DNA from: Thermovibrio ammonificans HB-1
Lineage (GTDB): Bacteria; Aquificota; Aquificia; Desulfurobacteriales; Desulfurobacteriaceae
Direction: 5' to 3'
Assembly (NCBI RefSeq): GCF_000185805.1
Contig: NC_014926.1
Location: 948,418-1,012,417 of the forward strand
DNA: 64,000 bases
Position numbers and translations under genes: made by a program. The notes beneath the pieces are model-generated. The model saw nothing but the letters and a program-made list of their open reading frames with translations. It was not told the DNA's origin and did no database searches. The number at the start of each line of letters is the position of its first letter. The first letter of the stretch is position 1. Positions 29,339 through 35,868 of this stretch are shown piece after piece.

Positions 29339-29820
29339 CTCTCCTCTCCTTCAAGTATTATCTCCATAGCCGTTTCATCACAGTTGGGGAATTTTACACA
29401 GTTTATACAGTCCCTCCAGATTTTATGGGGAAGGGTGTTCTTATCTATCTCCCTAAAGCCGAGCTTCCTGAAAAAGTCCACCTGGTATGTAAGGGTAAAA
29501 ACTCTGTTAATCCCGAGCTCAAGCGACTCCTCAAGGGCCCTCTTTACAAGGGCGGTGCCTATACCCTTTCCCGTGTGACCGGGAGCAACCGCCAGGGAGC
29601 GCACCTCCGCAAGGTTATCCCAGAAAACAGAGAGGGCACACACGCCCAGAACCGTTCCGTCCTCTTCGTAAACCCAGAACTCCCTTATGTTCTCGTAGAT
29701 GCTGTTTATGGAACGGGGAAGCATAAGCCCCAGTTTGGCGTAGTGGTTAACGAGGAACTGAATGCTCTCCGCATCCTGAACTTTTGCCTTCCTAATGGTG
29801 CCGGGAACGCTCCTGCTCAA
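29335..29820 (-). CDS. GNAT acetyltransferase, short ArgA-like
   Basis: A 161-residue cytoplasmic acetyltransferase. The acetyl-CoA loop is [15 protein letters not shown] (the RxxGxG region), preceded by LAEVRSLAV and followed by [11 protein letters not shown]. The tail carries a cysteine cluster, [13 protein letters not shown], seen in short N-acetylglutamate synthase-like proteins that lack the kinase domain. First step of arginine synthesis is therefore likely but not proven. Four-base overlaps join it to both neighbours. Confidence 0.75.
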
Positions 29821-31043
29821 CTCTCCCCCATCCTAAGAACTTTCACAGGCTCAGTTTTCGCCGCCCTCAGCGCCGGGTAAACCGTTGCAATCCCGCTTAT
29901 GATTAGGGCCGCAACGGCGGCAACTACGCAGTCTGCAAGGTGGAGCTGAAAGGGAAGGTGGTCTATGTAGTAAACGTCCGGCGGCAGGGGAATGAGCTTA
30001 AACTTCTCGCCGAAAACGGAAACGGCAATCCCGATTGCCTCACCCAAAATAGTGCCGATTGCCCCTATCAGAAGCCCCTGAAGGACGAAAACTTTCACGA
30101 TAAAGCCGTTTTCCGCCCCCACGGTTTTCAGTATGGCAATATCCCTGGACTTTGAGCTCACCGTCATCATGAGAAGGCTGGAGATGTTGAAAGAGGCAAC
30201 AACCACAATCAGCGTCAGAATCAGGAACATGGCGAGCTTCTCAAGCTTCAGTGCCGAGAAGAGGCTCTTATTTAAAGATATCCAGTCCTGAACCGAGTAG
30301 GCAGGGCCGAGGACGGCCTCTATCTGCCTCTCAACGGGTTTAACGAGGTTAAGGTCCCTAACCTTAACCATTAAACCCGTAACAGAATCTCCGAAACCGA
30401 ATGCCTTACGAACGGCGTCAAGGTGGGCAAGAACCAAGGAGGAGTCAAACTGATACATCCCCACCTCGAATATGCCCACCACGGTGAACTTGGCCGTTCG
30501 GGGTATAACGCCGAAAGGGGTCTTCCTGCCGTAGGGAGATATAAAGGTGATTTCGTCTCCCACCGTTATGCCGAGAGTATCGGCAAGAATACGCCCGATT
30601 ACCACACCCTTCGGGGAGCTCTCAAAGAGCTTCCAGTCTCCAACAACCATGTGCCGGGGAATGGAGGTAACTTTTGGCTCAAGGGCGGGAACACACCCCC
30701 TTATGGAAGCACTTGCGGCTGTTTGGGCCTGACCGGCCGTGGCCATAGCCGGAACGTAGATAAACGGCTCAACACCTACAACGCCCTTAATCTTCGATAT
30801 CACGTGCTGAGCGTAGTCGTAACGAACAAAGGGACCCGAACGCTTCATCACTATTATGTCGGCGTTGGCAGAAAGAAGCCGCTTCTTTATGGCGTCTTGG
30901 AAGCCGGTCATAACGGAGTTAACGATTATAAGGGCGGCCACCCCCACAACAACGCCGAGAACTGCAATCAAAACGGCGAAGGAGTGGTAGCCGCCCTTGG
31001 GCTTTAAACTCCTAACCGCAAGCCACAGAAGGAGCGGGTTCAA
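29817..31043 (-). CDS. Lipoprotein-releasing (LolC/LolE-type) ABC permease
   Basis: A 408-residue inner-membrane protein. One N-terminal membrane helix (about 20-45, [20 protein letters not shown]), a large periplasmic MacB/Lol core (50-265), and three C-terminal helices (about 270-395). The conserved loop [19 protein letters not shown] and the EAIGI segment mark the FtsX-like domain. It should help move outer-membrane lipoproteins out of the inner membrane. No LolD ATPase is adjacent. Coupled to lysS upstream by ATGA. Confidence 0.87.
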
Positions 31044-32699: not shown

Positions 32700-32736
32700 T
32701 TACACGATTTTGAATCTACGATGATTGAGGGAGTCA

Positions 32737-33519
32737 GTGGTTAAACTCCTCGAGGCCGTAGGAAGGTGGGTAATCGCCTTCTTGGAGTTCTGGGGAAGGT
32801 GGTTCCTGCTCTCTGCAAAGGCCGTAACCCTTGCATTTAAGCCGCCGCTGAGGCTCAAGAGGTTTATCTACTACCTTGCAACCATAGGCTCAGACTCCAT
32901 ACCGGTGATAGCGGTAACGAGCCTGTTCACAGGCGGCGTTATCGCCCTTGAGACCTACAACGCCTTCCACAGGTTCAACGCAGAGTTCATGATAGGCGCG
33001 GTTGTGGCAATCTCGATGGCCAGGGAGCTCTCTCCGGTTCTCTCAGCGCTGCTCGTAACCGCCCGCTCGGGCTCTGCTATGGCAGCCGAGATAGGAACCA
33101 TGAGGGTTACAGAGCAGATAGACGCCCTGGAGATGATGGCCGTAAACCCCATTAAGTTCCTCATAACCCCAAGGATATACGCCACAACCATTTCTCTGGT
33201 GTTCCTTACCGTTATAGCCGACATAATAGGCTACATAGGGGGATACCTGGTAAGCGTCCACATCTTCGGCGTTAACAAGACCCTCTACCTGAGGTACACC
33301 CAGAACTTCGCCCATATGGAAGACGTGTTTCACGGCCTCATAAAGGCCGCCGTTTTCGGCTTTCTCCTCTCCACTATAAGCTGCCTCTACGGATACTACA
33401 CGAGAGGAGGAGCAAAAGGGGTCGGAGAGTCCACTACAAAGGCGGTTGTCTCTTCCTCGATAGCGATTCTCATATTCGACTACCTGATAACCTACCTGCT
33501 GAGGCTCTTTAACCTATGA
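32737..33519 (+). CDS. mlaE: MlaE-type lipid-transport ABC permease
   Basis: A 260-residue inner-membrane permease of the MlaE/YrbE family (phospholipid transport between membranes). The conserved core is RELSPVLSALLVTARSGSAMAAEIGTM, with EQIDALEMMAVNP following; about five hydrophobic segments are visible. GTG 32737 is preferred since GAGGGAG lies just upstream; an in-frame TTG at 32725 is the alternative. It overlaps the ATPase gene by four bases. Confidence 0.92.
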   Translation: MVKLLEAVGRWVIAFLEFWGRWFLLSAKAVTLAFKPPLRLKRFIYYLATIGSDSIPVIAVTSLFTGGVIALETYNAFHRFNAEFMIGAVVAISMARELSPVLSALLVTARSGSAMAAEIGTMRVTEQIDALEMMAVNPIKFLITPRIYATTISLVFLTVIADIIGYIGGYLVSVHIFGVNKTLYLRYTQNFAHMEDVFHGLIKAAVFGFLLSTISCLYGYYTRGGAKGVGESTTKAVVSSSIAILIFDYLITYLLRLFNL

Positions 33520-34289
33520 GGGAAGCGATAATAGTTGAGAACCTGAAAAAGCGCTTCGGCAATAAGGTTGTCCACAACGGCGTGAGCTTCACCGTTTACG
33601 ACGGCGAAATTTTCGTGATAATGGGGCCGTCGGGAACGGGAAAGAGCGTTCTGCTGAAGCAGATAGCAAGGCTCATAATCCCCGACGAGGGGAGGATAAA
33701 GGTTTACGACTTCGACGTTATAAACCTGAAAGAGGAGGAGCTTGAGCGCTTCAGGGAGACGCTTACTTACGTTTTCCAGAGCGGAGCGCTCTTTGACTCC
33801 TACCCGGTTTGGTACAACGTGGCCTTCTACCTCATAGAGAAGAAGGGCGTGAAGGAGAGAGTGGCCCGGGAAAAGGCCAGCTACTACCTGTCGCTCCTGG
33901 GGCTTTCCGGAACGGAAGACCTATTCCCCAGCGAGCTCTCGGGAGGTATGAGAAAGAGGGTGGCCGTTGCAAGGGCCCTGTGTATGAACCCAAAGTGCAT
34001 ACTGTTCGACGAGCCCACCTCGGGCCTTGACCCGGTGATGACGGCAATTTTCGACAGGCTGATTCTGAGGCTGCGGAGCGAGTTTAACAAGACCTGCGTT
34101 GTTGTGAGCCACGACGTTACAAGCGCCTTCAGGATAGCCGACAGGATAGCGATACTCTTTAACGGCAGGGTGGTTGAAGTGGGAACGCCGGAAGAGATTA
34201 GAAACAGTAAAAACCCAGTTGTTAAACAGTTCATCAACGGAGAACCTGAAGGGCCTATAACCGAAGCTCTGGAGCGTGAAGATGGGTAA
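33516..34289 (+). CDS. mlaF: MlaF-type lipid-transport ATPase
   Basis: A 257-residue ABC ATPase. Walker A is GPSGTGKSVLLK, the Q-loop is YVFQSGALFDS (the MlaF-type), the signature is ELSGGMRKRVAVARAL, and Walker B CILFDEPTSGLDP with the H-switch VVSHD. It pairs with the MlaE permease to drive lipid movement. The tail overlaps the mlaD start. No mlaB, mlaC or mlaA lies nearby. Confidence 0.93.
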   Translation: MREAIIVENLKKRFGNKVVHNGVSFTVYDGEIFVIMGPSGTGKSVLLKQIARLIIPDEGRIKVYDFDVINLKEEELERFRETLTYVFQSGALFDSYPVWYNVAFYLIEKKGVKERVAREKASYYLSLLGLSGTEDLFPSELSGGMRKRVAVARALCMNPKCILFDEPTSGLDPVMTAIFDRLILRLRSEFNKTCVVVSHDVTSAFRIADRIAILFNGRVVEVGTPEEIRNSKNPVVKQFINGEPEGPITEALEREDG

Positions 34290-35868
34290 GCTGAGTCTTG
34301 AGGCCAAAGTTGGCGCCCTGGTAATTGCCGGGCTCACCGGCCTTGGAGTTATAGCAACAACCCTCAACCCCCTACAGTTTAAAAGGGGGGTTGAGCAAAA
34401 GCCCTACCTTATCTACTTCAGCAACGCCGCCGGCCTTGAGAAGGACGCCCCGGTAAGGGTGGCCGGAGTTACGGTGGGTAAAGTTGTAAAGGTAGGAGTA
34501 AAAGACGGCAAGGCGGTTGTAGAGATAATCTTCACAAAGCCCGTGAAGCTCTACAAAAACGCCGTTGCAAAGATAGAGACCATGGGCCTAATGGGCGAAA
34601 AGTACGTTGAGATAGACCCGGGCCACCCGCCGGCACCACCGCTTCCCCCGGGCTCGGTTATAGAGCAGACCCAGGTTCCCGCCTCTATGGACCAGGTGAT
34701 GACCTCTCTGAACCAGCTCCTCGAGAAGTTCAACCAGGCGGTTACAACCCCCGACGGCAAGAACAGAATCGCCATCATAATGGACAGGATAAACCAGCTG
34801 ACCGCAAGCGTGAACAAGGTTGTAAACGACGTTGACACCCTTTTAACCGAGAACAGGAAAAACGTTAAGAAGCTCATAGAGAACGCCCTGGCCCTTACAG
34901 AGAGCCTGCGGGAGGAGCTTCCCCAGATACTCGACAACGTAAACAACCTCACCCAGCAGCTCTCGGAAGTAACCCTTGAGAACCGCCAAGACATCCGTCA
35001 GCTGGTAAGGAACCTGCGCTTGGCGAGCGATAAGGCACCCCAGATTGCCGCGAACCTCGACCAACTCACCAAGAACCTGAAAGAGCTCCTCAACGAACAG
35101 GATACGAAGAACATCAAGGAGACCCTGGCAAACATCAAGGCCACAACAAAGGAGCTGAAGGAGCTTCTGGCCAAAGTCAACAGCGGCAAGGGAACCATCG
35201 GGAAGCTCTTCAACGACGAAAGCCTTTACGCCAACTTGGATAAAACGGTCAAAACCTTGGGAAGCCTTGCGGAGAAGGTCGAAAAGACTCAAGTTTACGT
35301 AGGCTTCAGAGGCGACGTAAACACGAGAACCGGCGACAGCAGAGGGGTGTTTACCCTGAAGGTGGAGCCCCCGGAGAAGGACCACTACTACCTGCTTGAG
35401 GTTGTGGGCAACTCCCAGGGACACATAACCTACCAGAAGTACTACATAGATACGGGAACGACAACCGGCTGGCGAGAAGAGGTGGAGAAGAACTACAAAA
35501 CCCAGTTCACCCTCCAGTACGCCAGGATATTCAACGCCGACTGGCTGAGGCCGGGAACGAAGCTGGTTCTGAGGGGAGGACTCAAAGAGAGCTCCGGAGG
35601 GGTAGGGCTCGACCTACTGTTTAACAAGCGGTTTATGCTGGTTTCGGACCTTTGGAACACCGGCAGGAAGGACTCCAAGGGAGACAACATACCGCCCCAC
35701 CTGCGAGTGGGAGTTAAGTACTTCCTCAACAAGAACTGGTTCGTTTACGGAGGCGGCGACGAGCTCCTGTACCACAAGTGGAGAGGCGTTTACCTTGGAG
35801 CCGGCGTCCTGTTCGGCGACAACGACATTAAGTACCTGCTCGGCTCAATGCCCGGAGGTATAAAGTGA
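34282..35868 (+). CDS. mlaD: MlaD-type MCE protein with long coil and C-terminal barrel-like domain
   Basis: About 528 residues, three times the length of E. coli MlaD. Visible parts are an N-terminal membrane helix (about 8-25), an MCE domain (about 38-115; ISTRKP-like core YFSNAAGLEKDAPVRVAGVTVGKV), a long helical coiled region (about 135-325) rich in Asn/Gln/Leu heptads, and a beta-rich C-terminal part (about 335-528) of alternating amphipathic strands. That resembles MlaD proteins of diderm Firmicutes in which a C-terminal outer-membrane barrel spans the envelope. ATG 34282 is chosen over GTG 34276 by its distance from GGAG. hisH overlaps its end. Confidence 0.85.
   Translation: MGKLSLEAKVGALVIAGLTGLGVIATTLNPLQFKRGVEQKPYLIYFSNAAGLEKDAPVRVAGVTVGKVVKVGVKDGKAVVEIIFTKPVKLYKNAVAKIETMGLMGEKYVEIDPGHPPAPPLPPGSVIEQTQVPASMDQVMTSLNQLLEKFNQAVTTPDGKNRIAIIMDRINQLTASVNKVVNDVDTLLTENRKNVKKLIENALALTESLREELPQILDNVNNLTQQLSEVTLENRQDIRQLVRNLRLASDKAPQIAANLDQLTKNLKELLNEQDTKNIKETLANIKATTKELKELLAKVNSGKGTIGKLFNDESLYANLDKTVKTLGSLAEKVEKTQVYVGFRGDVNTRTGDSRGVFTLKVEPPEKDHYYLLEVVGNSQGHITYQKYYIDTGTTTGWREEVEKNYKTQFTLQYARIFNADWLRPGTKLVLRGGLKESSGGVGLDLLFNKRFMLVSDLWNTGRKDSKGDNIPPHLRVGVKYFLNKNWFVYGGGDELLYHKWRGVYLGAGVLFGDNDIKYLLGSMPGGIK

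Follow-up and report, generated by a model that had tools for sequence, protein, structure and literature searches.

The 64,000-nucleotide stretch of the Thermovibrio ammonificans HB-1 genome analysed here (contig NC_014926.1, positions 948,418 to 1,012,417; henceforth the window, in whose coordinates features are given) encodes a long form of MlaD, which is probably the MCE subunit of a minimal MlaE-MlaF-MlaD lipid transporter whose MlaD spans the whole envelope. The gene lies on the + strand from an ATG at 34282 to a TGA stop ending at 35868 (528 residues), with an in-frame GTG 6 bases 5' of the ATG. Since mlaE and mlaF stand directly upstream with overlapping ends, and relatives of the protein occur in 96 of 101 Aquificota genomes, this is not a chance open reading frame (ORF). 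The trans-envelope kind of MlaD is already known, having been described in 2023 in Veillonella (PMC10665443); what is added here is the phylum-wide retention of a MlaD of this type, the unlinking of mlaD from mlaE at the loci that were read outside the Desulfurobacteriaceae, the presence of LolA in a genome that lacks MlaA, and a helical repeat of 43 residues seen in relatives.

The protein begins with an inner-membrane helix (residues 6-27; 34297..34362, + strand, as for all parts that follow), which appears as a hydropathy peak of ~1.6 over 19 residues and as a low-confidence helix in the AlphaFold2 (AF2) model. Next comes an MCE domain (residues 40-114; 34399..34623; PF02470, E=3.5e-19), modelled with a predicted local distance difference test score (pLDDT) of ~80 and matching solved MlaD/MCE domains. 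It is the single PF02470 stretch that Pfam finds in the protein, and a multi-MCE protein of the PqiB or LetB type was therefore rejected. The helical region (residues 133-335; 34678..35286) leads into the C-terminal strand domain (residues 336-512; 35287..35817), a predicted outer-membrane beta-barrel, and the chain closes with a short helix (residues 513-527; 35818..35862) seen in the AF2 models and coinciding with a conserved D-x-D-(I/L)-K-Y-L-L-G stretch. The full-length model is poor in the helical part, which it renders as helix at low confidence, and only its domain boundaries were used. This layout bears out an earlier note on the same DNA, which had described about 528 residues with an inner-membrane helix, one MCE domain, about 190 residues of coil and about 190 of strands (we find ~200 helical residues followed by ~180 in antiparallel strands); the terminal helix was absent from that description.

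The C-terminal domain is most readily understood as an outer-membrane beta-barrel, a prediction drawing on structure modelling and on the pattern of sequence variation. An AF2 run on residues 300-528 (229 residues) with an alignment of 15 homologues returned an antiparallel up-down meander followed by the terminal helix, with a pLDDT of 73.6 and a predicted template modelling score (pTM) of 0.64. DSSP assigns 12 strands in this model; if strands 3+4 and 5+6 are taken as two long strands, the count would be ten. Among the 50 listed Foldseek matches in the PDB, 49 are described as porins or other barrels of the outer membrane or as designed transmembrane barrels (for instance FapF, OmpG, OmpU, Omp33, NanC and TMB10), and the remaining one, 9j9l, as an artificial metalloprotein; many of the named structural matches in the viral library are outer-membrane barrels too. 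The hydropathy of the strands alternates strongly (33.2 vs 15.4 +/- 3.2 in shuffles), and indels across the aligned homologues (n=41, 510-533 residues long) fall nearly all in the predicted turns of the domain. The exceptions are the C-terminal tail, residues 394-398, where one predicted strand begins, and residue 362, the last of a strand, where the indel reflects an additional residue in the window protein. Invariant C-terminal residues in this 41-sequence alignment include Q412, R431, G433, D444, G506, G508 and F511. Both ends of the putative barrel would be periplasmic, with the longer connections mostly outside and the shorter ones inside, the 8-residue inner turn in Desulfurobacteriaceae being an exception to the short-inside pattern. 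A PDB sequence search with the C-terminal domain alone matched no solved chain, and Pfam and NCBIfam searches with this domain from the window protein and five relatives gave no convincing family.

Several observations weigh against the barrel and the bridge built on it. The Foldseek matches are distant (E ~1e-3, query-normalised TM-score 0.19-0.40, large root-mean-square deviation), and a closed barrel therefore stays a prediction; over all 12 strands of the domain the polar and hydrophobic faces are equally conserved (p=0.64); the protein has no standard C-terminal beta-signal because its last strand is not at the C-terminus; the likeness to the Veillonella parvula protein discussed below is one of domain order; and the helical part is modelled with a pLDDT of only ~30-40. 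It is conceivable, if improbable, that the C-terminal domain is instead a periplasmic beta-structure, either a sheet or a soluble barrel, sitting at the tip of the tunnel and docking onto a separate outer-membrane protein or peptidoglycan, so that MlaD would reach the outer membrane but not enter it. The moderate AF2 model, the distance of the structural matches, the lack of clear inside-out conservation over the whole domain and the helix after the last strand would all suit such an arrangement. However, nearly every listed match is an outer-membrane barrel and none is described as a natural soluble beta-protein, and the conservation of the last six strands runs opposite to that of the MCE domain: in the latter the hydrophobic strand face is the more conserved (p=0.04), the pattern of soluble proteins, whereas in the former it is the polar face, an inside-out pattern (p=0.045, in a weak test on a post-hoc split). 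Furthermore, in a divergent relative of the same order (in G059) the C-terminal part is shorter and closes with ...GFAGTSVDF, with the terminal Phe in which outer-membrane proteins usually end. The divergent 452-residue MlaD at L090:3142-4500, from another family of that order, has a short C-terminal part with Phe as its last residue. We retain the outer-membrane barrel as the preferred prediction.

The genomic complement of Mla components is consistent with a bridge of this kind. Searches of the genome (1.76 Mb in two contigs, 99.99% complete) found no match to MlaC (PF05494) or MlaA (PF04333), although the same searches were positive in E. coli and Caulobacter, and none to a STAS_2 (MlaB-type) protein, for which the same search was positive in E. 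coli. With MlaA, MlaB and MlaC not found, an E. coli-like six-part Mla system was rejected. More broadly, MlaA and MlaC are found in none of 61 Aquificota genomes searched, while MlaE is present in all 61. An outer membrane is nonetheless to be expected, since other parts of the genome encode LptD, TamB (a 1308-residue frame), LolA and two Omp85 proteins; neither a missing outer membrane nor a missing LolA thus explains why there is no MlaA, and with LolA present a lack of lipoprotein sorting would not explain it either. The absence of mlaA, mlaB and mlaC that the earlier note had remarked on near the locus thereby extends to the whole genome by search, and its idea of an all-in-one envelope-spanning bridge is largely supported. 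A soluble fold of the C-terminal part, which would have spoken against that idea, did not appear, the AF2 meander matching outer-membrane barrels, if distantly (TM ~0.2-0.4); its comparison with a Veillonella MlaD carrying a C-terminal outer-membrane barrel likewise agrees with the literature (PMC10665443).

That precedent is the MlaD of V. parvula, a protein of 419 residues with a ten-strand barrel that works in a system with neither MlaA nor MlaC and whose barrel fragment is recovered in the outer-membrane fraction (Grasekamp et al., 2023; PMC10665443). The same study reported 85% of MlaD homologues to be long, with a barrel predicted in 103 sequences, and argued that the shuttle of E. coli is exceptional. 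The string "Aquific" does not occur in its main text, to which our check was confined, and its supplementary tables may include Aquificota. Both proteins share an inner-membrane helix, one MCE domain, a long helical region and a predicted C-terminal barrel (ten-stranded by one reading here), and both are encoded with MlaE and MlaF in genomes that have TamB and lack MlaA and MlaC. They differ in overall length (528 vs 419 residues), in the size of the helical part (~200 vs ~150 residues), in the extra C-terminal helix of the Thermovibrio protein (helical extensions are mentioned for some sequences in PMC10665443), and in that LolA is encoded here, unlike in the V. parvula system. With the MlaFEDB complexes of E. 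coli and Pseudomonas aeruginosa the system shares MlaE, MlaF and the MCE domain (structure matches include 7ch8 and 6zy2); however, their MlaD is short (157-183 residues), and in E. coli the system works with MlaC and MlaA, neither of which occurs here. The best full-length Foldseek matches are to Mycobacterium smegmatis Mce1 (8fed), which has an MCE domain followed by long tunnel-forming helices; Mce1 forms a heterohexamer whose chains do not each carry a full barrel, whereas the single MCE gene of Thermovibrio implies a homohexamer.

We infer outer-membrane insertion, a hexameric state and a direction of transport for the mlaD product, from which the following mechanism may be proposed. Six MlaD chains would be seated on a core of MlaE and MlaF. 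At the inner membrane their MCE domains would form a ring around a central pore, and their six long helices a tunnel or groove across the periplasm, with each chain ending in its own small outer-membrane beta-barrel, both ends of which would face the periplasm. Phospholipids would move between the membranes through the helical tunnel, driven by the MlaF ATPase, and neither a periplasmic shuttle like MlaC nor an outer-membrane MlaA would be needed. The six C-terminal domains might alternatively join into a single larger barrel of the TolC kind, or into a small pore, rather than six separate barrels. Fused barrels were considered, and 6-stranded shared barrels reported for some barrel-less MlaD proteins (PMC10665443), and mycobacterial Mce1 forms such a small barrel; but with 10-12 strands per chain, enough for a barrel of its own, we regard this arrangement as unlikely for the Thermovibrio protein and favour separate barrels. 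Transport would most likely proceed from the outer to the inner membrane, the direction that has been proposed for the Mla systems of E. coli and Veillonella. Direction is unreadable from sequence and was left open by the V. parvula authors (PMC10665443), yet TamB, the proposed carrier in the opposite direction, is encoded too, and in V. parvula Mla and TamB were found to oppose each other (PMC10665443). These points make an alternative to the outer-to-inner direction the less probable choice, though one deserving more weight than a shared barrel.

The helical region is partly built on a 43-residue repeat of the form ENRxDIR...NL...L...LP, which is clear in relatives and weak in the window copy. 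Self-similarity peaks at a lag of 43 in L066, read as Aquificaceae, where lags of 25 and 68 and then 18 come next, and, more weakly, in L053, read as Hydrogenothermaceae; the window copy scores best at a lag of 7, with 43 among several weak ones. Over the alignment the hydrophobic period is 3.60, which is near that of an uncurled helix and would suit straight helices lining a tunnel; with a rise of 1.5 Å per residue, a stretch of 200 residues could bridge as much as 30 nm.

Relatives of the long MlaD occur in all 28 genera sampled by the Aquificota genomes, a phylum that NCBI places in the kingdom Pseudomonadati. If genes reported in two adjoining pieces are included, at least 90 of the 96 relatives are complete or almost complete; the remainder are contig-end fragments or a divergent form. 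The nearest named relatives are metagenome-assembled genomes (MAGs) of Desulfurobacteriaceae and Thermovibrio, in Aquificota per NCBI. Throughout the Desulfurobacteriaceae, wherever the locus reaches far enough, the order is mlaE-mlaF-mlaD-hisH, preceded by lysS on the opposite strand. The Aquificaceae and Hydrogenothermaceae loci that were read (family names inferred) have no mlaE or mlaF beside mlaD; at L053, L057, L066 and L067, all outside Desulfurobacteriaceae, mlaD adjoins unrelated genes. Conversely, five stretches around an MlaE match outside this family (G007, G010, G038, G059 and G026) contain an mlaE ORF in four cases and mlaD in none; in G010 the ORF filter listed no mlaE, yet the family search placed one there. 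Beyond the phylum, MAGs of Schekmanbacteria (L013) and CSSED10-310 (L014) encode a long MlaD of similar length with the same domain order and C-terminal domain at ~32% identity, with mlaE and mlaF upstream as here, in other phyla and with diverged sequence. One Desulfurobacteriaceae genome (L094; G014:C2:202000-216000) has two copies of both mlaE and mlaD, which lie 7223 bases apart and are identical over at least 5465 bases, either a recent duplication or an assembly artefact. Some Aquificota genomes carry a second, shorter MCE-like frame of ~310 residues (G025, G030, G043, G046, G086 and G088) or a second MlaE, encoded by a frame of 274-368 residues (G018, G025, G030, G041, G043 and G046), which perhaps represent a separate Mce system.

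In the window, mlaD is the last gene of its operon and encodes the only MCE protein found in the genome (a single match); the long form is conserved along its length across Aquificota. The first gene, mlaE (32725..33519, +), encodes a 264-residue inner-membrane permease subunit (PF02405, E=4.4e-80; TIGR00056 above its cut-off), the genome's only MlaE. The second (33516..34289, +) encodes a 257-residue ABC ATPase subunit (PF00005, E=6.7e-30) overlapping mlaE by 4 bases and mlaD by 8; the MlaF model NF008809 ranks second among its NCBIfam matches, under its cut-off, and its role as mlaF is assigned from its position between mlaE and mlaD (synteny). Downstream, a gene for a glutamine amidotransferase, taken to be hisH, overlaps mlaD by 4 bases. 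Promoter and terminator scans did no better than chance, and the window contains no Rfam matches or tRNAs. Near the operon, a LolC/E-like lipoprotein-release permease is encoded at 29817-31043 on the - strand (TIGR02212, E=6e-102, slightly below cut-off).

How phospholipids cross the envelope is unsettled in most two-membrane bacteria. Extended tentatively to the Aquificota as a phylum, an all-in-one MlaD bridge might replace MlaA and MlaC, with helices of near-3.6 period, carrying the 43-residue repeat in relatives, lining an unusually straight tunnel of up to ~30 nm; we hold this extension to be possible rather than probable. A phylum-conserved, thermophilic trans-envelope MlaD could supply a stable protein for a full-length structure.
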